From Cryptosporangium phraense (GTDB lineage Bacteria; Actinomycetota; Actinomycetes; Mycobacteriales; Cryptosporangiaceae), in contig NZ_VIRS01000004.1 in assembly GCF_006912135.1 (NCBI RefSeq), positions 186,001 through 250,000 on the forward strand: 64,000 nt of DNA, given 5' to 3'. Below are positions 28,809 through 58,700 of the stretch, one piece after another (position 1 is the stretch's first letter; every line of letters begins with the position of its first letter). The notes under the pieces are model-generated. The model was not told where the DNA came from. It made no database searches and saw nothing but the letters and a program-made list of their open reading frames with translations. The position numbers were made by a program, and so were the translations under genes.

Positions 28809-28913
28809 CCCACCCGGGAGCGATCCCGGGCGCGCCGGCCGGTCGGATCATCGTGGATCAGTTGAACCACAGTGGCGGTCGTCTCGTTGGGCTGGTGTGG
28901 GACGATCACGGCC

Positions 28914-29480
28914 ATGACCGGCCAAGGCTTCGCGCGGGAAGCGCGCGCCGGGGTTTTCACCCTGGTGTGCCTCGGCCTGTCGATCGCGCTGCACTCGTGG
29001 GTCTCCCGCGACCTGCCGTCGACGACCGCGATCTTCGCCGGCGCGGGCCTCGTCCTCGTGGTGGCGTTCGGGCTCGCCGGGCGTGAGCGGCGCTATCCGT
29101 TCATCCTGACGACGATGCTGACCGCCCAGGCGGCACTGCACGTCCTGTTCGAGGTCCTGCCGCACGCCGGTCACCACGGCGAGGTGCCGGTGACCCTCGG
29201 CGGTCTGCCGAGCGTCACGATGGTGCTGGCGCACCTCGCCGCCGGCCTGTCGGCCGCCGCCTGGTTGCGGGGCGGCGAGACCGCCGTGTGGCGGATCGGC
29301 CGCCGGCTCGCCCGTGGCGCCGGCCCACTGCGCCTGCTCTGGACGCTCGTCCGCGCGCTCGTTCTGCCGACGCGCCCGTCCGCCCTGGTCGACGGGGCCG
29401 AGCAGCCGGTCGTCCGGCCGATACCGGGCTGGCAGCTCAGCGTCATCCGGCGGGGCCCGCCGGCGCTCCCCGCGGCCTGA
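28914..29480 (+). CDS. integral membrane protein upstream of ycnI
   Basis: 188 residues from the ATG at 28914. Four to five helices are visible: GVFTLVCLGLSIALHSW, TTAIFAGAGLVLVVAFGLA, TTMLTAQAALHVLFEVL and SVTMVLAHLAAGLSAAAWL. A conserved-looking LPHAGHHGE loop sits between helices, a possible metal site. The C-terminal 50 residues are cytosolic and basic. It precedes ycnI by 162 bases in the same direction and probably belongs to the same copper-related set. The function is unknown. Confidence 0.65.
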   Translation: MTGQGFAREARAGVFTLVCLGLSIALHSWVSRDLPSTTAIFAGAGLVLVVAFGLAGRERRYPFILTTMLTAQAALHVLFEVLPHAGHHGEVPVTLGGLPSVTMVLAHLAAGLSAAAWLRGGETAVWRIGRRLARGAGPLRLLWTLVRALVLPTRPSALVDGAEQPVVRPIPGWQLSVIRRGPPALPAA

Positions 29481-29642
29481 TCCGCCACCGGCGCCCAGGC
29501 GCACCACGCCTCACCCGGCGCCCCGACGCGCAGACGCCTCCACCGGCGCGCGGACGCGCCGTGTCCCTTCATGTCTGAAACATCCCTTCCTGGGTGGCCG
29601 GCTTCGCCGCTGCCCTCTCTTCGCTGTGAAAGGAACCCCACA

Positions 29643-30368
29643 ATGACGGCACAACGGCTCCTGGCCCGTACCGCTGCGGTGGTGGCCGCCGCCGGATTCG
29701 CCGTGCTGGGCCTCGCGGGCCCGGCGTTCGCGCACGTGACGGTCAACCCGTCCGAGGCGACGCAGGGCGGCTACGCCGCATTGACCTTCCGCGTCCCCAA
29801 CGAGGAAGCCGCCGCCAGCACCACGAAGCTCGAGGTCGCGCTCCCGACCGACAACCCGATCGCGTCGGTGTCGGTGAAGCCGGTCCCGGGCTGGAAGATC
29901 GAGACCACGACGTCGAAGCTGGCCAAGCCGGTCACCACCGACGACGGGCAGCTGACCGAGGCGGTCAGCCGGATCGTCTGGACCGCCACCAGCAAGGACA
30001 GCCAGATCGCCCCGGGTCAGTTCCAAGAGTTCTCGATCTCGGTCGGGCCGCTGCCGGAGACCGACAAGGTCGTGTTCAAGGCGCTGCAGACGTACTCCAA
30101 CGGTGAGGTCGTCCGCTGGATCGAGGAGCAGACCGGCAGCGACGAGCCGAAGAACCCGGCGCCGACGCTGAAGCTGGTCAAGGGAACCGGCGACGACGAC
30201 CACCACGCGACGTCCACCGACACCAGCGAGGCCGCGTCGGCGTCGAGCACGTCGGACGACGACAGCGGCAACGGGGTCGCGATCGGGCTGGGCGTCGCCG
30301 GTCTGGTCGCCGGGGTGGCCGGCCTGATCGCGGGCCTGCTCGCGCTGCGTCGCTCGACCGCCTCCTGA
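29643..30368 (+). CDS. ycnI: YcnI-family copper-binding protein (DUF1775)
   Basis: 241 residues. The signal peptide ends at AGPAFA, so the mature protein starts HVTVNPSEATQGGY; an N-terminal His with nearby acidic and Trp residues forms the copper site known for YcnI domains. The DUF1775 domain continues through FRVPNEEAAASTTKLEV and IVWTATSKDSQIAPGQFQEF to about residue 180. An Asp/His/Ser-rich linker and a C-terminal helix (GLGVAGLVAGVAGLIAGLLAL) anchor it outside the membrane. A GAAAGGA ribosome site precedes the ATG. It likely handles copper at the cell surface. Confidence 0.88.
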   Translation: MTAQRLLARTAAVVAAAGFAVLGLAGPAFAHVTVNPSEATQGGYAALTFRVPNEEAAASTTKLEVALPTDNPIASVSVKPVPGWKIETTTSKLAKPVTTDDGQLTEAVSRIVWTATSKDSQIAPGQFQEFSISVGPLPETDKVVFKALQTYSNGEVVRWIEEQTGSDEPKNPAPTLKLVKGTGDDDHHATSTDTSEAASASSTSDDDSGNGVAIGLGVAGLVAGVAGLIAGLLALRRSTAS

Positions 30369-30370
30369 CC

Positions 30371-30691
30371 GTGTTCCCACCCGACCTCGCCGGGTACCGC
30401 CCGCACCGCACGATCGAGGACATCGATCTGTGCGGGGACGGGCGGGCGGTGCCCGGTCTCGTCGCCCGGTTCTACCGGCGTCACTCCGGTGACCGGGTGG
30501 CGTCGGTGGGTCACTACACGTACGACGGCCGCGATGCCCTGCTGGCCTGGGGATACGTCGGAGAGCCGGACTGCGCGTTCCACGCCGTCGGGCTCCCCGA
30601 CCGGGGCTGGGACGCACCGCGACCCGGCTGCCCGCGGGCCGAGCTGGTGCTCGCCGCGGACGGCCGGGTCGTCGGGATGTTCCTGCGCTAA
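30371..30691 (+). CDS. small hypothetical protein
   Basis: 106 residues from a GTG two bases after the ycnI stop. It contains TIEDIDLCGDGRAVPGLVARFY, GDRVASVGHYTYDGRDALLAWGYVG and RAELVLAADGRVVGMFL. There is no signal peptide or membrane helix, so it is probably cytosolic. I do not recognise the family. Close spacing suggests co-translation with ycnI; its stop coincides with the convergent stop at 30688. Confidence 0.5.
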   Translation: MFPPDLAGYRPHRTIEDIDLCGDGRAVPGLVARFYRRHSGDRVASVGHYTYDGRDALLAWGYVGEPDCAFHAVGLPDRGWDAPRPGCPRAELVLAADGRVVGMFLR

Positions 30692-31041
30692 GCGGGCTGC
30701 TCGACGCGCGCCGACCGGCGCACGACGAGTACCGAGAGCACGGTCAGCGCGAGCCCGCTGGTCAGCGCGACCGCGTGCAGCACGGGGTTGGCGATCGGGA
30801 CGAACGCGATCACCGCGACCGGCAACTGCAGGCCGATCACCAGCGCGAGCAGCGCCCGACGGCGGGCACCGCCCCAGAAGTAGGCCGTCCACAGCGGAGC
30901 CGTGACCACGGCTAGCGTCAGGACGTCCAACAGAGAATGCAGGTACGGGTTCTGGACCCGGTCGTGAGCGAACGCGGACGCGGGCGACGCCACGGCCAGG
31001 ATGGTTAAGGCTCCGGCGAGCACAACGAGCGGTCGACGCAT
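30688..31041 (-). CDS. small membrane protein with N-terminal His after signal cleavage
   Basis: 117 residues from the ATG at 31041. The N-terminal hydrophobic stretch ends in SPASAFA followed by HDRVQNPYLHS; if signal peptidase cuts there, the mature protein begins with His. Two to three further helices follow: VLTLAVVTAPLWTAYFW, ALLALVIGLQLPVAVIAFV and LHAVALTSGLALTVLSVLVV. It is the last gene of the DyP-fusion / cupredoxin operon. No family is assigned. The context and histidines suggest a copper- or redox-related membrane factor. Confidence 0.6.
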   Translation of the reverse strand: MRRPLVVLAGALTILAVASPASAFAHDRVQNPYLHSLLDVLTLAVVTAPLWTAYFWGGARRRALLALVIGLQLPVAVIAFVPIANPVLHAVALTSGLALTVLSVLVVRRSARVEQPA

Positions 31042-31118: not shown

Positions 31119-31538
31119 CTAAGGATTGACCTCGAGGACTCCGCGCATGCCGCTCTCGGCGTGGTACAGGCAGGGAAACGGGTACCGGCCGGGTTTGGTG
31201 ATCGTCAGGGTGAACGTGACGGTCTCGCCGCCGTTCACGTTCCCCGCCGTCCGATCGTCGAGCGTCATGTCGTGCGGTGTCACGCCGACGTTCTGTAGGC
31301 GGAACTCGATCACGCCCGGTCGGGCTTCCACGTGGTCGGGCACGAACTTCAGGTCGTCGGTCATGCTGACCGAGATTCGTTGGACGCCGTCCGGGCCGGC
31401 GGTGGCGGCCACGGCCGGCGCTTCGGACGTCGAGGTGGTGACCGGGGCGTCCGACCGGCCGATGCCACCCGGGCCGCCCTCGGGCCCCCAGGAGCATCCG
31501 GCGACGAGCAGCACCAGAGCGATCGCGGCGCGCTTCAT
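31119..31538 (-). CDS. cupredoxin-domain lipoprotein
   Basis: 139 residues. The signal peptide ends in a lipobox LLVAG-C (Cys15). After a Ser/Thr linker, the plastocyanin-like domain has VTPHDMTLDD (first His ligand) and FPCLYHAESGM (Cys, His and Met), a complete type 1 copper site of H-C-H-M order. It would carry single electrons at the outer face of the membrane. The ATG overlaps the stop of the DyP fusion (ATGA), so the two are coupled, and the cupredoxin is a plausible electron partner of the peroxidase domain. Confidence 0.87.
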   Translation of the reverse strand: MKRAAIALVLLVAGCSWGPEGGPGGIGRSDAPVTTSTSEAPAVAATAGPDGVQRISVSMTDDLKFVPDHVEARPGVIEFRLQNVGVTPHDMTLDDRTAGNVNGGETVTFTLTITKPGRYPFPCLYHAESGMRGVLEVNP

Positions 31539-33871
31539 CGGCCGATCTCCTCGAACAGGGCCTGACCGAGGTAGCCACCGCTGCTGACGCCCCCCGGCAT
31601 CGCGAACAGCGCGCTGGTCTCGTGCCGGGTGAACGTGCTGAGCCGGTCGTGGCCGCGGACGAGGTTCTGCTGGATCGGGATGAAGCCGGTACGCGGGTCG
31701 GACTGCCAGGCCAGGAAGATCAGCCCGGCCTCGACGCCGCCACCCGGCTGCGGGTCGGCGAACGAGTAGCCCCGCCGGAGTATCGCCGCCCCGCGGTTGA
31801 ACGCCGAGGTGGCCAGGCGGATGTGGGAGTTCTCGGCGATCATCGGTCGCCCGTCGGCGCCGAGGCGGCCGAAGTTCGCCGGGGTCGTCTCGACGCCGCC
31901 GGACAGCGGGGCGCCGCTGTCCTTCTTCCGGCCGAGGGTCTTCTCCTGCTCGGCGACGTCGAGCTTCTCCCAGTCGTCGAGGAGCATCCGGATCCGGCGG
32001 ACGACCAGGTAGGAGCCGTCCTGCATCCAGCCGTCGCCGGTGACGAACACGGTCCTGGTGAACGTCGCGTCGGTGGGTTTCGGGTTCCGGGTGCCGTCGA
32101 GCTGGCCCATGAGGTTGCGGACGGTCGCGCCTTCGTTCGTCGTGACGCCCCGGCCGCGGGTGAAGCCCGCGAACTGCCAGCGCGGTCGCGCCGTCCCGGC
32201 GGCGAGCTGTTCGAGCCGGCGGATCGCCGAGTACACGACGACCGCGTCGTCGGCCGCGACGAGCACGCCGAGGTCACCGTCGCTGCGCCCGGGGTCGAGC
32301 GTCTCGCCCGCGAAGGCCGGGAGCGGGGCGAGGGCTTCCGGCCGGGCGCCGGCCGGGATTCCGGCCTGGCCGAACAGGCTCGGCCCGAAGCCGACCGTGA
32401 TCGTGAGGCTGGCCGGGCCGCTGTCGGCGGTCATGTCGTCGCCGCCGTCCCCGGCGGTGAGCTCGGCGGCGGCGGTGGTCCACCGCTGCAGGAGCGCCTT
32501 GAGTTCGGTCGAGTCGACGCCCGGGAGCAGGTCGAAGGCGGCGATCCGGGCGTGGGACTGGCGCTGGGTGGGGGTGGCGATTCCGGCTTGTCGGGCGCCC
32601 CGGAACGGCACGATCCTGCTGCCCACCGAGCCGAGCGGGACGGTCGTCGGAGGTGGGGCCGCTGTGGGTGTCTCGTCGCCGGCGGCCAGTTGCAGACCGG
32701 CCCCGGCGATCCCGCCGACGCCCAGCGCCCCGGCCAGCCCGACGGCCTCCCGCCGGCTGATCCCCCGCCGAGCCCCGGCGCCCCCGAGCACCGGCGTGGC
32801 TGCCGCCCCGACGGGCTCGGTGTCGAGCTCAGGCTCCGGGGCGTCGTCGGTCGGAGGCACGATTTGGCGCTGCGGGGAGCGTCCGCGAAGGAGGTGTAGG
32901 GCCAGGGCGCCCAGGAGGCCGAGGCCGGCACCGAGGGCGACCACGACGGTGAGGCGGTCGAGGGTGAGCGGCAGGACCGTCGGGGCCGACGAGCGCCAGA
33001 AGACCGGCAGGTCGGGAACGCCGGACGCGACCGCGACGCACACCCCGACGATCGCCGCCGCCCACACCCCACCTTCCCGGCGGCGAACCAGCAACCACAC
33101 CGCGAACCCGCCGATCGCCCACACCGCCACCTGCGGCAACAGCGGAACGACGAACGCGCCGAACCCCCGCTCCCCCAGCAGCGCGACCCCGATGCTGTGC
33201 GCCGCATCCGCCACCACGACCAGCGCCGCCACCCCGGCGAGCACGCGGAGGCGCAACACCAGCACCGCCGAAGCGACCAGCAGCACCGCGACGGCGGCGA
33301 ACCATCCCCACGGCGACGGGCCCGGCACCCAGGCCAGCGTTCCGGTGCCGGTCAGCGTGCGGCCGCCGTAGTCGAGCGTGACCGTCCAGCGGCTGAGCTG
33401 GTGATACGAGTCCGGGTCGGCGCTCACGACCGGCGGGAGCGTGGTCTGCATCCAGTGGGTCCGGTGATCGTGCCAGCGGAAGAACGCATCACCGGAGACC
33501 TTGCGCCAGGACGGCGCCTTCTTCGGGTCCGCGGTCGCCGGGACGCTGGTCACCCCGTACCGGTCGGCGTTCAGGTAGTACGCGGGCGAGTTCTCGTTGA
33601 CGTACACGCCGTCCCGGCCGACCTTCGCGTACGGCTCGCTCTGGTAGCCCCGGACGATCACCGGGATCGCGGTGGAGTTCCGGACCTCGAGCTTGCTGCC
33701 GTTCTCCACGACCGAGAGCGCGACCCCGGGAGCCCCGGTGAACCGCGTCAGCTCGGTCCGGAAGTCGGTCGCGCCGACCCCGCCGACGGTGTGCGCCGAC
33801 GCCGGCCCGGCCGCGAGCCCGAGCAGCCCGGTGACCAGAGCGACGAGCACGGCGGCCCGGCGAACCCACAT
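31535..33871 (-). CDS. polytopic membrane protein fused to a DyP-type peroxidase
   Basis: 778 residues, start ATG at 33871. Order: signal peptide (GLLGLAAGPASA, then His27), an outside beta-rich domain to about 190, five helices to about 325 (WGWFAAVAVLLVASAVLVL, VLAGVAALVVVADAA, QVAVWAIGGFAVWLLV, AAAIVGVCVAVASGV, LTVVVALGAGLGLLGALAL), a cytosolic linker, then GISRREAVGLAGALGVGGIAG (about 366-385), a twin-arginine motif and Gly-rich helix. A complete DyP domain follows (about 424-778): AGIATPTQRQSHARIAAFD, LMGQLDGT near 588, SHIRLA with the probable haem His near 679, and NRGAAILRRGYSF. Positive charges follow helices 3 and 5, consistent with the sixth helix exporting DyP. DyP enzymes are haem peroxidases normally made as separate Tat proteins (EfeB). 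Confidence 0.82.
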   Translation of the reverse strand: MWVRRAAVLVALVTGLLGLAAGPASAHTVGGVGATDFRTELTRFTGAPGVALSVVENGSKLEVRNSTAIPVIVRGYQSEPYAKVGRDGVYVNENSPAYYLNADRYGVTSVPATADPKKAPSWRKVSGDAFFRWHDHRTHWMQTTLPPVVSADPDSYHQLSRWTVTLDYGGRTLTGTGTLAWVPGPSPWGWFAAVAVLLVASAVLVLRLRVLAGVAALVVVADAAHSIGVALLGERGFGAFVVPLLPQVAVWAIGGFAVWLLVRRREGGVWAAAIVGVCVAVASGVPDLPVFWRSSAPTVLPLTLDRLTVVVALGAGLGLLGALALHLLRGRSPQRQIVPPTDDAPEPELDTEPVGAAATPVLGGAGARRGISRREAVGLAGALGVGGIAGAGLQLAAGDETPTAAPPPTTVPLGSVGSRIVPFRGARQAGIATPTQRQSHARIAAFDLLPGVDSTELKALLQRWTTAAAELTAGDGGDDMTADSGPASLTITVGFGPSLFGQAGIPAGARPEALAPLPAFAGETLDPGRSDGDLGVLVAADDAVVVYSAIRRLEQLAAGTARPRWQFAGFTRGRGVTTNEGATVRNLMGQLDGTRNPKPTDATFTRTVFVTGDGWMQDGSYLVVRRIRMLLDDWEKLDVAEQEKTLGRKKDSGAPLSGGVETTPANFGRLGADGRPMIAENSHIRLATSAFNRGAAILRRGYSFADPQPGGGVEAGLIFLAWQSDPRTGFIPIQQNLVRGHDRLSTFTRHETSALFAMPGGVSSGGYLGQALFEEIGR

Positions 33872-34016: not shown

Positions 34017-35243
34017 GTGACCTCCGTGTTTCCCCTCGAAGTCGTAACGGTCGTCGGGATCGGTGCCGACGGCTGGACCGGGCTCGGGGATCCCGCACGG
34101 TCCGCGCTGCGCGAGGCCGACGTCGTGTTCGGGAGCCGCCGCCAGCTCGGCCTGCTCCCGGCCGACCTCAACGCCGAGCGGGTGAGCTGGCCCCGGCCGA
34201 TGCTCCCCGCAATCCCGTCGCTGCTCGGCGCCCATGCCGACCGCCGGATCGCGGTGCTGGCCAGCGGCGACCCGATGTTCTTCGGCGTCGGATCGACGCT
34301 CGTCCGGCAGCTCGGCCCCGACCGCGTGCGGGTGATCACGCACCCCTCGTCGATCTCGCTGGCCTGCGCCCGGCTGGGCTGGCCGGAGGAGAAGATCGAG
34401 ATCGTCAGCCTGGTCGGGCGTCCGGTCGAGCGGTTGCACACGGCGATCCACCCCGGGCGCCGGGTGCTCGCGCTCAGCGCCGACGGCACGACGCCGGCCC
34501 AGGTCGCGTCGCTGCTCGTCGCCCGAGGCTACGGGGACAGCCAGATCACGGTGCTGGAGCACCTGGGTTCGGAGGCGGAGTCCCGGCGCACGGCGCGCGC
34601 GTCCGAGTGGGCCGGCGAGGTCACCGGGGCGCTGAACGTGATTGCGGTCGACTGCGTCGCGGCGCCCGACGCCCGGCTGCTCCCGCTGGTCCCCGGGCTG
34701 CCCGACGACGCGTTCGATCACGACGGCCAGATCACGAAACGCGAGGTCAGGGCCATCACGCTGGCCCGCCTGACCCCGATACCGGGCCAACTGCTGTGGG
34801 ACGTCGGCGCGGGCGCGGGAAGCATCGCGATCGAGTGGCTGCGGACGCACCGGTCGTGCCGGGCGGTCGCGGTCGAGCACCGTCCGGACCGGGCCGCCCG
34901 GCTGGCCGGGAACGCGGCCGCGCTCGGGGTGCCGGGGCTGACCGTCGAGGTCGGGTCGGTGCCGGAGGCACTGACCGCGCTGGAGACGCCGGACGCGGTG
35001 TTCATCGGCGGCGCGGTGACCGCGCCCGGGGTCGTCGAGGCCTGCTGGGACGCGCTGAAGCCGGGCGGGCGCCTGGTGGCGAACGCGGTGACGATCGAGT
35101 CGGAGGCCGTGCTGGGGCGGTGGCAGGCCGAGCTCGGCGGCGACCTGACCCGGATCGAGATCAGCCGGGCGGCGCCGGTCGGCGGCTTCCTCGGGTGGAA
35201 GCCGATGATGCCGGTGACGCAGTGGGTGGTGATCAAGCGATGA
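34017..35243 (+). CDS. cobL: precorrin-6B methylase CobL (C5,15-methyltransferase, decarboxylating)
   Basis: 408 residues from the GTG at 34017 (a GTG at 34026 is possible). The N-terminal tetrapyrrole methylase half ([34 protein letters not shown]) corresponds to CbiE. The C-terminal half ([44 protein letters not shown]) is the CbiT Rossmann methylase. It methylates C5 and C15 and decarboxylates precorrin-6B. It heads cobL-cobM-cobK, about 17.7 kb from the cobG-H-IJ/cobN group. Confidence 0.93.
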
Positions 35244-35986
35244 CCGTGCACTTCATCGGGGCCGGGCCGGGGGCGGCGGACCTGATGACGCTGCGCGGGC
35301 GGGCGTTGATCGAAGCGTCGCCGGTGTGTCTGTACGCCGGGTCGTTAGTGCCGGTCGAACTGCTGTCGTGGTGCCCGGCCGGGGCGCGGCTGGTCGATAC
35401 GGCCGGCCTGAACCTGGACCAGATCCTGGCCTCGATCGTCGACGCTCACGAGGCCGGCCTCGACGTGGCTCGGCTGCACTCGGGCGACCCGTCGGTGTTC
35501 AGCGCGATGGCCGAGCAGATGCGTCGGCTGGACGCGCTGGGGATTCCGTACGACGTGACGCCGGGCGTGCCGGCGTTCGCGGCCGCCGCGGCCGCGCTGA
35601 AGCACGAGCTGACCGTGCCCGGGGTCGGGCAGACCGTGATCCTGACCCGGACGTCGGCCCGGGCGACGCCGATGCCGCCCGGCGAGGACCTGGCGACGCT
35701 GGGCGCGAGCCGGTCGACGCTGGTGCTGCACCTGGCCGTGCAGCGGATCACCGCGGTGGTGTCCGAGCTGATCCCGTCGTACGGCGAGGACTGCCCGGTC
35801 GCGGTCGTGGCCCGGGCCAGCCGGGAGGACGAGCTGGTGCTGCGGGGGACGCTCGGGGACATCGCCGCGGCCGTGGCCGAGGCCGGGATCGTCCGGACCG
35901 CGGTGATCATCGTCGGGGCGGTGCTGACCGCGTCCGAGTTCTCCGATTCGCACCTGTACTCGTCGGCCCGGTGCCGAGAGTCCTGA
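35240..35986 (+). CDS. cobM: precorrin-4 C11-methyltransferase
   Basis: 248 residues. The ATG overlaps the cobL stop (ATGA). [50 protein letters not shown] and [18 protein letters not shown] are diagnostic CobM/CbiF signatures; [14 protein letters not shown]-like sequence follows. It adds the C11 methyl group from SAM. Its 3' end overlaps cobK by 16 bases, so the three genes are translationally coupled. Confidence 0.94.
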
Positions 35987-36729
35987 TCCTCGGCGGGACC
36001 GGGGACGCGCGGGAGCTGGCCGGCTTGCTGGTCGGCCGGTACTCGGTGGTCAGCTCGCTGGCCGGACGGGTGCGGGAACCGTCGCGGCCGGCCGGGGAGG
36101 TGCGGGTCGGGGGGTTCGGCGGGGTTCCCGGGCTGGTCTCGTATCTGCGTTCGGCCGGGATCGACGCGGTGGTGGACGCGACCCACCCGTTCGCGGCCGA
36201 GATGACGTCCCACGCGGTGACGGCCTGCGCGGCCGCCGGGGTGCCGCTGGTGGTGCTGCGGCGTCCGGGGTGGGTCGAGGGTCCCGGTGACCGTTGGCTG
36301 CGGGTTCCGTCCTATGCGGACGCGGCCGCCGCATTGCCGTCGCTGGGGACGAGAGTGCTGCTGACCATCGGTCGCCAGGAGCTGGCGCCGTTCGCGGGGT
36401 GTGCCGGGTGGTTCCTGGTCCGCAGCGTCGATCCGCCGTCGGTGCCGCTGCCTGCGCACTCGGAGGTGCTGCTGTCACGCGGGCCGTTCACCCGGGAGGG
36501 CGAGCTGGCGCTGCTGCGGGAGCACCGCATCGAGGTCGTCGTGACGAAGGACAGCGGCGGGTCGGCGACGTACCCGAAACTGGCCGCGGCCAGGGAGCTG
36601 GGGTTGCCGGTGGTGATGATCGACCGGCCGGCGCCGCCCCCCGACGTGACGACCGTACTGACGCCGACCGACGCCGCTCAGTGGCTCGCGTCGCTGCGCT
36701 GGGGCTTGCCGCGGTGGTCGCGGCCTTGA
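35971..36729 (+). CDS. cobK: precorrin-6A reductase
   Basis: 252 residues from the GTG at 35971 inside the end of cobM. The nucleotide-binding start [48 protein letters not shown] and [15 protein letters not shown] are characteristic of CobK/CbiJ, which reduces precorrin-6A with NADPH. It completes the methylation and ring-contraction steps together with cobG, H, I, J, L and M in this window. Confidence 0.93.
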
Positions 36730-55717: not shown

Positions 55718-58700
55718 CTAGAACATCAGGCGGACCAGCTCCACTCGGGAGCGCACTCCCAGGCGGACGAAGATGTTGCGCATGTGGTGGTCGACCGTCC
55801 GGACGCTCAGGTAGAGCTTCGCGGCGATCTCGCGGTTCGTCGCGCCCTGGGCGGCCAGGCCGGCGATCTGGAGCTGTTGCGGGGTGAGGCTGTCGTTGGT
55901 CTTCGGCGGCCCCGAGGCCTCCCCCGCCGCCCGCAGCTCACCGTGGCAGGCCTCGGCCCACGGGTTCGCGTCCAGGCGCTCGAACGTCTCGAGCGCGCTG
56001 TGCAGCACGTTCCGGGCCGCCAGCGAACCGCGACGACGGCGCAGCTCGTGGCCGTAGAGCAGCTCGGTGCGGGCCCGCTCGAAGTCGTGATCGCCCAGCA
56101 GGTGCAGCCGCATCGCCTCGCGGTAGTTCTCCTCGGCGACGCCGGGCTCGGTCGCGACCATCGCCCGGATGCGGGCGGCCAGCGCCTTCGGGGCCGGGCT
56201 GCCGGTCGCGTCGGCCCACTCGGTGAAGTAGCGGCCGACCGTGCTCGCGGCCTGGCGGTCCCCGCAGCGCAGCGCGGCCTCGACGAAGTGCGGCGCGGCC
56301 ATCATCCGGACCAGCGGGTGCGACCGGCCGGCGCCGGCGTCGGACACCAGCACCTGCAGCCGCGAGGCCGCCTCGGCCGTGCGTCCGACCGTCAGATCGA
56401 GGGCGGCCAGGGCCCAGTTGGCCATCGCCACCGACATCGCCAGTCCTCGGTCGTCGGCCTCGGCGATCGCGGCCCGGGCCCGGACGACGCAGGTCTGCTC
56501 GTCGCCCCTCGGGACCGCGAGCAGCGCGAGCGTCGCCAGGTGGAAGCTGGCCGAGCCGACCTGGCCCAGCTCGCGGGCGCGCTGGAGCCCTTCCTCGGCG
56601 CTGGCCGCCGCGCTGGGGTGGCGGCCGAGCCAGAGCTGGGCGTAGGTGGTGAGCTCCAACGTCCGCGGTATCACCGCGACCTCGCCCCGGACCTGGGCCG
56701 CGGCCCGGGCCCGGACCGAGAGGCCGAGGCCGAGTGACTCCTGGCCGAGGATGCAGGCGACGAGGCTCGCCCAGACCAGGAGGGTGGGGTCGTCGTGCTG
56801 CGGCGCGAGCTCGAGGACCCGCCTCAGGGGTGCGACCGCTTCGCGGTGGCGGCGGTTGAACGTGGCCGACATGCCCGCGCAGAACTCGAACATCAGCTCG
56901 GCTTCGGGTGACTCGTGGCCGGTCCGCAGGGCCAGAACCCGGTCGAGGACGCTCAGGTAGCGGCGTTGGTCGCCGGCCAGGAAGTCCGGTTCGCCGGCGT
57001 GGATCAGCGCGATCATCGCGGCCGTGCGGTGGGGTTCGCCGAGCCGGGTGGCGGCTTGGATGAGGTGTTCCTGGGCCGCGGCGGGCAGGCCGGTGCGGAG
57101 CTCGATCTCGCCGCGGAGGAGGTCGCGGAAGCCGTGCAGCGCGGTCTCCGGCTGGGGCGGCCGGACCCGGGCGAGGAGCACGCCCGCCCGGTGCGGCTGG
57201 CCGGCCAGCCAGGCGTCCTGGGCCGCGGCCAGCAGGTGGGACGCTCGGTCGCCGGCCTCGGCCGAGAGCTCGGCCACCCGCTCGGCCGCGACCGAGGCCG
57301 CGGAATGATCCCCGCTCCCCCGGACGGCCGCGGCCGCCGCCGCCAACTCCCCGACGACGTCACCCCTACCGGCACCGCCCCCGACGACGTCACCCCCGCC
57401 GGCAACCGGACCAGCCGCGGCCACGACGGCCGGGTTCGGACTCGCCGCGCCCGGGCCCGCCGCGCCCGGGCCCGCCGGGTCCGGGTCCGCCGCGCCCGGG
57501 CCCGCCGTAGGCGGGGCCGCCGTAGGCGGGGCCGCCGTAGGCGGGGCCGCCGTAGGCGGGGCCGCCGTAGGCGGGGCCGCCGTAGGCGGGGCCGCCGTAG
57601 GCGGGGCCGCCGTAGGCGGGGCCGCCGTAGCCGCCGCGCCCGGGCGCGGCGGGGCGGCATCCGTCTCCAGGAGGGCGGCCAGGTGCCAGGCTCGGCGTAA
57701 GCGGGCTGCCGCTTCGGCCCGGGACCATGGCGCCCCCTCCGACGGCGGCGCGGCGTCAGCGTCCGCGGGAAGGACGTCGGCCAGCAGGCGGTGGGCCGTG
57801 CGACGGTCGGACGCGGCGGCGGACCGGTAGACCGCGGCCCGCAGCAGCGGGAACCGGAAGCGGACCGCGCCGTCGGACTCGTGGACGAGGCCGGCCGCCT
57901 CGGCCGGCGCCAACGCCGACAGCGACCCTCCACCGGCCTCGGCGGCCCGGCCGAGCGTCCGCACGTCGAGCTGTTCATCGGCCGCGACCAGCACCAACAG
58001 CCGCCGGGTAGCGATCGGCAGCCGGGCGATCCGGTCGTCGTACTCCTTCCGCACCCGGCTGTAGAGCGGCAACGTGTCCGGCAGCGGCACCCGGCCGGCG
58101 CGCTGGTCGGCCGAGAGCGTCCGGGTCAGCTCCTCGATCGCGCGCGGGTTCCCCGCGCACGACTGCCCCACCACCGCGGCGACGTCGGCGGCGACGTCCC
58201 CGGCCAGCAACCGGTCGATCAGCGCGGTGCAGGCCGACGGGTCGAGGCCGGGCAACGTCAGCGACGGCAGACCGGCCGGCGCCGGACGGTCGTCGGGCGC
58301 CGCGAACAGCATCGCGACCTTCTCCGACGCCAACCGCCGCCCGACGAACGCCAGCACGTCCCGGGAAGCGTCGTCGATCAGGTGGACGTCGTCCACGCAG
58401 ACGAGCACCGGACGCCGCCGGGCCGTTCGCACCAGCAGTTCCAGCACCGCGACGCAGAGCGGCAACTCCCCCGGCACGTCCGCCGGATCACCGGCCATCG
58501 CCCGGGTCAGCGTCGCCGCCTGCATCCTCGGCAGCGACGAGATCCGGGCCGAGAGCGGCATCAGCAGCCGGTGCAGCGCGGCGAAGGCCAGATCGGACTC
58601 CGCCTCGACGCCCTCCGCGGTCAGGACGACGAAGCCGGTGGCGGCGTCGGCCGCGTACCGCAGCAGCGAGGTCTTGCCGATGCCCGGCTGGCCCTGGACG

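Follow-up and report, generated by a model that had tools for sequence, protein, structure and literature searches.

A DtpA-like haem peroxidase fused to a His-first membrane protein: a recurrent actinobacterial gene fusion with a likely Sec/Tat assembly and a likely role in copper trafficking

A stretch of 64,000 nucleotides from Cryptosporangium phraense (contig NZ_VIRS01000004.1, positions 186,001 to 250,000; hereafter the window) contains a reading frame in which a polytopic membrane protein is continued by a dye-decolourising peroxidase (DyP). This raises the question whether the two halves are one protein and, if so, how a haem enzyme behind five membrane helices would be brought to its place of action, and what it would do there. 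The find is larger than first noted: the gene belongs to a recurrent two- or three-domain fusion of a membrane family with histidine as first mature residue (His-first), a peroxidase of the DtpA branch and a cupredoxin. The product is likely to be a single membrane-tethered copper-trafficking peroxidase, assembled first by the general secretory (Sec) and then by the twin-arginine translocation (Tat) pathway. A tethered copper-oxidising unit is the most economical model for what was observed, namely a fusion in one frame with a single origin on two trees, conserved twin arginines (RR), a place in the DtpA clade, linkage to copper genes and, in three genomes, a further fusion to the cupredoxin. 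No paper describing the fusion by title or abstract was found in the open-licence PMC literature, and no experiment on it was found.

The fusion gene is located at 31535-33871 on the minus strand, as are all its parts given below (stop codon 31535-31537), and is translated into 778 amino acids. The uninterrupted frame reported in the initial annotation was borne out on this strand; the plus-strand reading of the same interval is broken by a stop. Around the gene the G+C content is 74%, the frame is open upstream of the start up to 34489 and further long frames overlap the gene. Since stops are rare in such G+C-rich DNA, the openness of the 778-codon frame is weak proof by itself, and the reality of the fusion frame rests on homology. 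Pfam domains Dyp_perox_N (PF04261, residues 428-570) and Dyp_perox_C (PF20628, residues 584-762) were found far over their cut-offs, which agrees with the complete DyP domain annotated earlier. Together they form the haem peroxidase domain (residues 428-762, 31586-32590) with D592, H683 and R700, which we take to be the catalytic aspartate, the proximal histidine and the distal arginine, respectively. Thus the last 350 residues hold a complete peroxidase; no Pfam family was found in the first 427.

The N-terminal half starts with a signal peptide (residues 1-26, 33794-33871, ending GPASA|H) predicted from hydropathy, with the cleavage site judged by eye. His27 (33791-33793) is the predicted first mature residue and a candidate copper ligand, and relatives have A or G followed by H at the same place. 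It is followed by a predicted extracytoplasmic ectodomain (residues 27-184, 33320-33793), a beta-sandwich in the AlphaFold2 models, that carries the motif WHDHRTHW (residues 133-140, mature W107-W114, 33452-33475), conserved in an alignment of 44 rows. Five membrane helices (residues 188-330, 32882-33310) were predicted by hydropathy and AlphaFold2. Between the fifth transmembrane helix (TM5) and ISRR lies an acidic, Pro- and Ala-rich linker, predicted to be cytoplasmic (residues 331-369, 32765-32881). The twin arginines R373-R374 in ISRREAVGL (32750-32755) precede a Gly-rich, weakly hydrophobic sixth helix (residues 377-397, 32681-32743; Kyte-Doolittle (KD) value 1.53), the proposed Tat-dependent anchor. 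Hydropathy profiles of all four fusions of the genus showed the signal peptide, the five-helix block and the weaker sixth helix after SRR. With the AlphaFold2 model of mature residues 1-319, they uphold the order of parts, including the ectodomain, that was read from the window protein before.

Both halves are in a single frame in all four genomes of the genus; in the sole other genus of the family examined (one genome) they are on separate contigs. Named genomes were scanned with the membrane half, taking the best 80 of 384 relatives, and the window's own relatives were possibly left out; the number of fusions, 18 (4 in the genus and 14 other loci), is a lower bound. A DyP gene is next on the same strand in 14 of the 80 named loci, and 13 of these form one open frame: Longispora albida, two Hamadaea metagenome-assembled genomes (MAGs), a Micromonosporaceae MAG, six Catellatospora and three Catenulispora(les) MAGs. 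In the fourteenth, L117 on a metagenome contig, the frame is interrupted within the membrane half and close to the peroxidase end, and it is the exception to a linker that is in frame with both halves in 17 of the 18 fusions. No DyP gene was seen in the DNA examined at 62 of the 80 loci. In four Blastococcus loci (L131, L133, L143, L154) the membrane-half gene and a DyP gene are convergent neighbours; these peroxidases are placed in the clade on the EfeB side, which makes this pairing an independent one. Among sampled genomes the membrane half was found in 18 of 296 (E 1e-8) and in 107 of 298 (E 1e-20). A second, unfused copy, about 40% identical, is present in three of the four genus genomes (G001-G003; L041, L042, L043).

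The stretch from the core end of TM5 to ISRR is 43 residues long in the window protein; in the three other fusions of the genus it measures 43, 110 and 68. In 11 of the 17 intact fusions the linker was measured, and lengths of 43, 43, 68, 110, 87, 102, 92, 52, 102, 75 and 127 residues are all kept in frame. The linker is fast-evolving, with a ratio of non-synonymous to synonymous differences (pN/pS) of 0.47-0.75 compared with 0.10-0.31 in the flanking parts (10/10 pairs). A tree was made for each half: all 18 fused DyP domains group in a single clade (support 99/91), and the membrane halves of the intact fusions, 17 in number, likewise form one clade when compared with 37 unfused rows (99/97). 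The simplest reading is that the fusion arose once and was then inherited or transferred. Two artefacts had been considered when the fusion was first described, a frameshift that joins two genes and two separate genes with a start codon in the linker. Both were ruled out: one frame is kept in 17 of 18 fusions across diverse linkers, the in-frame GTG and ATG codons of the four genus linkers are scattered without a shared position, and none of them has a Shine-Dalgarno match of more than 4 bases. The architecture recurs in one frame in 4/4 genus genomes and 13/14 other loci, and the fusions in the named-genome scan rule out a curiosity of the genus. Locus L122 was dropped as a further C-terminal fusion, its extension running through a masked stretch.

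The fusion does not always end with the peroxidase. The three Catenulispora(les) frames go on to encode a cupredoxin; with the start codons chosen, the chains are about 920-970 residues long, in the order membrane half, RR helix, DyP, cupredoxin. A separate cupredoxin gene is next in 14 of the 15 remaining fusions; none was seen at L117. In the window this gene (31119-31538, minus strand; PF13473, PF00127) encodes a probable lipoprotein (LVAGC), and its start overlaps the stop of the fusion as ATGA. A His, Cys, His, Met pattern, that of a type 1 copper site, is present in all 17 cupredoxins found. In the three Catenulispora(les) fusions the peroxidase and the cupredoxin are joined and therefore lie on the same side of the membrane; given a cupredoxin, this should be the outside.

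How the peroxidase would get there is suggested by a class of membrane proteins described by Tooke et al. (PMC5449189), in which the early helices are inserted by Sec and a last, weak helix led by RR is inserted by Tat. The class includes the actinobacterial Rieske protein (Sco2149), the haem/molybdenum cofactor (MoCo) protein Sco3746, a polyferredoxin and a long YkuE. Like these, the fusion has Sec-type helices, RR before a weak last helix and a predicted external C-terminal cofactor domain, and the number of spans agrees with that study: the signal peptide and five helices, an even number, precede RR and one follows. RR is found directly before the last helix in 18/18 fusions, despite the divergent linker around it, and the KD value of the sixth helix is 1.41-1.78 in 18/18, below the best helix window of each protein. 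Per counted loop stretch, 2-4 basic residues are present in the loops predicted to be inside and 1-2 in those predicted to be outside in all four genus fusions. This weighting to the inner loops is in line with the initial proposal that positive charges set RR inside and the DyP domain outside. The Catenulispora(les) fusions are nearest to the textbook, with SRRSFL before the sixth helix and DDRR or DDRK after it. When five fusions were scanned, the Pfam Rieske Tat-signal model aligned to the sixth helix in one (L120; 21.3 bits, cut-off 24). TatC is present in all seven fusion genomes tested, of 18. Finally, the free Streptomyces lividans member of the peroxidase clade, DtpA, has an experimentally shown Tat signal (PMC4736821).

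The fusion also differs from the proteins of the main text of PMC5449189, in which the words peroxidase and DyP are not found: it starts with a cleavable signal peptide and an ectodomain, its cargo is a haem peroxidase, the protein families are other ones, and in the fusions of this genus no positive charges follow the last helix. This last point weighs against a dual assembly. No K or R is present in the 15 residues after the sixth helix of the window protein, in contrast to the positive charges described there by Tooke et al. (PMC5449189), and none in 10/18 fusions; 1-2 are present in the other 8/18. The sequence after the arginines of the window protein also detracts from the case. With A-V after RRE, its Tat motif is not ideal compared with what we take to be the consensus. 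Because the positive charges after the helix are lacking, the fusion is not filed in the dual Sec/Tat class as a proven member, but we conclude that it would work like one. In the initial annotation both pathways had been proposed for this protein. The parity, the RR and weak helix of 18/18 fusions and the Tat signal in the DtpA clade sustain the proposal, the charges after the last helix do not, and dual Sec/Tat assembly as a whole appears well supported.

Since the sixth helix reads as a Tat signal peptide, a signal peptidase might cut after it, so that a self-splitting Sec/Tat precursor would give a five-helix membrane protein and a freed peroxidase. We regard this as unlikely, although it is the alternative that survives best. 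The sixth helix of L040 ends with QAAA|S, a possible AxA site, but by eye such a site is not kept in Catenulisporales (LLLDDRR or LLLDDRK) or Hamadaea (GIGLR or GISLR). In DtpA, the signal of which is Tat-dependent, the predicted cleavage site is weak and the protein may stay anchored in the membrane (PMC4736821). Considerably less probable is a peroxidase that stays in the cytoplasm, with RR as a chance pair, a sixth helix that is not exported and a fusion that serves to link the enzyme to a copper membrane protein. The imperfect flanks of the Tat motif and the missing charges after the helix would fit, but RR is kept in 18/18 fusions while linker length and sequence vary, and free DtpA bears a Tat signal (PMC4736821). 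Moreover, a cytoplasmic peroxidase would place the blue-copper domain of three fusions inside, whereas the free cupredoxin of the window has a lipoprotein-type signal. The preferred reading is therefore that of a peroxidase exported by Tat and held by the sixth helix.

The best solved relatives of the peroxidase domain are SCO3963 (PDB 4gt2; 344.6 bits) and DtpA of S. lividans (SLI_4211; PDB 5map, 5mjh, 6gzw; 332 bits), and E. coli YcdB structures reach at most 131.6 bits. The sister of the fused clade in the tree consists of four DtpA-like rows (99/97). These are from one genus, probably Streptomyces; two were checked against SCO3963 and for their operon, and two rest on the tree. The checked rows score 749.6 and 633.6 bits with SCO3963 and about 300 with the next enzyme, and each stands last in a run of genes for DUF1775, Sco, PCuAC, CopC-CopD and DyP, arranged as in the sco-ecuc-SLI_4212-dtpA operon of S. 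lividans (PMC4736821). An EfeUO-linked DyP paralogue of the window genome is placed in a separate clade of 28 rows (100/98). The catalytic D and H are present in 18/18 fusions and R in 17/18, L117 losing its frame before this residue. By its sequence relations the fused peroxidase is DtpA-like. In the initial annotation DyP/EfeB was named as normally a free Tat substrate; the fused enzyme resembles DtpA rather than EfeB. A second copper-type peroxidase operon of the window genome, in which a long-branch DyP gene stands between those for PCuAC and CopC, was seen on contig C15 (L064, 8296-10516).

With EfeB/YcdB, the deferrochelatase-peroxidase, the fused domain shares the DyP superfamily and a Tat-type signal, while clade and gene context are different. 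A membrane-anchored EfeB for ferrous iron uptake is slightly less probable still than a cytoplasmic enzyme. The EfeB model TIGR01412 is the best-scoring NCBIfam family of the fused domain (351.5 / 354.1 bits), and an EfeO-like protein of the window genome also bears a cupredoxin domain. The score is, however, below the curated cut-off of 428 bits, and the two checked DtpA rows pass this cut-off with 541 and 495 bits, so that TIGR01412 does not discriminate EfeB from DtpA and an annotation relying on it would name those DtpA proteins EfeB. On another contig the window genome encodes an EfeB of its own (513 bits), with FTR1 and imelysin genes as neighbours; no efeU-efeO-efeB cluster is found at the fusion, the neighbours of which are cupredoxin, YcnI and cobalamin-type genes. 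Iron uptake was rejected as the main role on the basis of the DtpA clade, the score below the cut-off and the separate EfeB with its efe-type genes. Least probable of all is a chance joining, in which the linker between two genes merely happens to be open at high G+C and the peroxidase is made from an internal start: stops are rare here, GTG or ATG codons are in frame in all four genus linkers and the listed 5' starts have no clear Shine-Dalgarno match either, but no start position is shared, the frame survives linkers of 43 to 127 residues, the pN/pS of the linker is 0.47-0.75 in 10/10 pairs and each half is a single clade.

A role in copper trafficking would follow from the DtpA relationship. 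In S. lividans, the copper oxidase GlxA requires DtpA to mature, and oxidation of the Cu(I) carried by Sco was proposed as the reaction of this peroxidase (PMC4736821). The fusion resembles this system in its Tat-type RR helix and, in Catenulisporales, in its copper-gene setting, but DtpA is a free Tat substrate, whereas the fused peroxidase has a five-helix membrane protein before it and, in three of the genomes, a cupredoxin after it. At the 80 named membrane-half loci, a relative of CopC-CopD was found in 50, YcnI in 44, Sco in 28 and PCuAC in 5; at least one of them is present in 61/80, compared with 1/7 comparison loci. At the fusion loci the distribution is patchy: the three Catenulispora(les) loci and L117 have some of these genes. 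sco, ecuc (PCuAC) and copCD are beside the fusion in L114 and L120, and the L120 frame stands after YcnI, Sco, PCuAC and CopC-CopD, the place of dtpA in S. lividans (PMC4736821). The window has only YcnI and the cupredoxin. PCuAC was found over cut-off in 13/18 fusion genomes, including 4/4 of the genus, and a GlxA-like E-set domain in 4/4 genus genomes and 8/14 other fusion genomes. GlxA-like radical copper oxidase genes were located in the window genome (L182, contig C6) and in G002 (L183); in L183, the only one of the two scanned with Pfam, the gene adjoins one for a CslA-like family-2 glycosyltransferase.

The copper role is weakened by several of these results. The ten Micromonosporaceae fusion loci, of 14 outside the genus, have no Sco, PCuAC, CopC-CopD or YcnI in the DNA examined, and the cupredoxin is their sole copper-linked gene. 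GlxA was not supported as obligate partner, because it is present in only 8/14 fusion genomes outside the genus. Sco is absent from 4/4 genus genomes and present in 5/18 fusion genomes overall. However, it is also missing from 20/37 relatives outside the genus; its absence therefore proves little and is a weak mark of the fusion. With Sco absent, the His-first ectodomain could be the copper holder. Two further points concern this ectodomain itself. Its candidate copper binding is read from conservation and gene company, and residues 1-3 of the AlphaFold2 model have a predicted local distance difference test (pLDDT) value below 50, so that the geometry of a copper site is not readable from it.

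Otherwise this model (mature residues 1-319, alignment of 44 rows) is of high confidence, with a beta domain followed by five helices and a mean pLDDT of 93.4. A or G followed by His is found at the mature start in 59/60 rows (L040 and L068 being one gene), after a signal-peptide end of the AxA type. This count is used since the alignments were cut at that His and rows without it excluded, which makes invariance there a matter of construction. W107, H108, D109 and R111 are invariant and H110 and H113 at least 90% conserved in 44 rows, and the WHDHRxHW motif is nearly fixed in the family. H108, H110, H113 and H131 are candidates for further copper ligands beside the histidine of the mature start, where the model is unreliable. 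The copper sites of CopC, YcnI and their relatives are characterised by histidine as first residue (PMC8424229), and the ectodomain probably binds copper by analogy to these histidine-brace proteins. DUF1775 (YcnI) is encoded beside the window fusion and in 44/80 membrane-half loci; unlike the YcnI and CopC proteins covered in that source, the ectodomain shares no Pfam family with them, and its copper site is a candidate one. In five ectodomain relatives (L031, L032, L033, L034, L037) an apparent tandem second copy, seen by eye, is present, the mature His is kept and a single C-terminal helix takes the place of the five.

The membrane half has no Pfam or NCBIfam match in the window protein and no consistent one in 44 rows, in which scattered weak matches to 14 Pfam families were obtained (E up to 1). 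With neither membrane-half model did a Foldseek search of PDB find a match at E 0.001 or better. In a second structure comparison, helical folds reached at most Z 8.9 and Ig-like or designed beta folds at most Z 5.2, values too weak for use, and profile searches of solved structures gave chance-looking rows only (best E 0.0014, ribosomal eL39). A similar plan, with signal peptide, mature N-terminal His, beta-sandwich and polytopic domain, is common to the anglerases Ang-1 and Ang-2, and one Ang-1 and one Ang-2 domain bound Cu(II) in vitro (PMC12537917). The anglerase structure 9GCE is not among the matches listed for the membrane half, which excludes nothing; none of the 14 Pfam families matched is HupE/UreJ_2, and a remote fold relation is possible. 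Copper-gene neighbours and, in the clade studied here, the peroxidase fusion set the membrane half apart from the anglerases as presented in that source (PMC12537917).

Put together, these results suggest the following order of events. The signal peptide and the five helices would be inserted co-translationally by Sec and the signal recognition particle (SRP), and removal of the signal peptide would let the ectodomain begin outside with a free histidine. The sixth helix, led by SRR, would be too weak for Sec, so that the C-terminal half would be kept in the cytoplasm, where it could fold on its flexible linker and take up haem. Tat would then recognise SRR and export the folded peroxidase, leaving the sixth helix as anchor. 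On the outer face, the DtpA-type haem would oxidise copper or a copper protein with H2O2, the copper being held by the His-first ectodomain and the co-made cupredoxin for delivery to enzymes such as GlxA. The parts of the last step differ in their grounds: copper is probably held by the ectodomain, as judged from conservation and gene company; it is probably oxidised by the haem peroxidase with H2O2, by analogy to DtpA; and the cupredoxin is probably the electron relay, as gene fusion and linkage point to. A more far-reaching version is tentative and, in our view, rather doubtful as a whole. In this version, one chain would be a complete copper-oxidising machine of the outer face, with Cu(I) on the ectodomain, a DtpA haem using H2O2 and a cupredoxin relay as domain or next gene; it would replace Sco-DtpA where Sco is absent, and in its assembly Sec would hand over to Tat over a long, disordered loop, with no charge brake of the kind used by the dual-targeted proteins known so far.

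Further genes around the fusion were recorded in the window. The third gene of the run (30688-31023, minus strand, start uncertain) encodes a small protein with a signal peptide and hydrophobic stretches that was found in 3/4 genus genomes; it gave no tblastn match in L039 and no Pfam family. A YcnI-like DUF1775 protein (PF07987, 185 bits) is encoded at 29571-30368 on the plus strand, start uncertain. The protein of 28872-29477 (plus strand) has no Pfam match and is recurrent in copper loci: relatives adjoin YcnI in the DtpA loci L061 and L066 and are present in 5/80 named loci, from Catenulisporales (L114, L120), Frankia (L124, L129) and Protofrankia (L144). At 34017-36726 (plus strand) lie genes for cobalamin (precorrin)-like enzymes, named by eye, the first two of which are present in 4/4 genus genomes. 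A tRNA-like match without clear anticodon at 56305-56401 (minus strand) is possibly spurious.

The membrane half represents a widespread actinobacterial family that has no name in Pfam and NCBIfam. Dual Sec/Tat assembly is known for few families of membrane proteins; if the assembly proposed here is true, a haem peroxidase with a cleavable Sec signal in front would be added to them, and it would be a natural case without the proposed charge brake after the last helix. For the DtpA branch of the poorly understood DyP peroxidases, the fusions name two physical partners, the His-first membrane protein and the cupredoxin, and they make the copper-oxidation idea for these enzymes directly testable.

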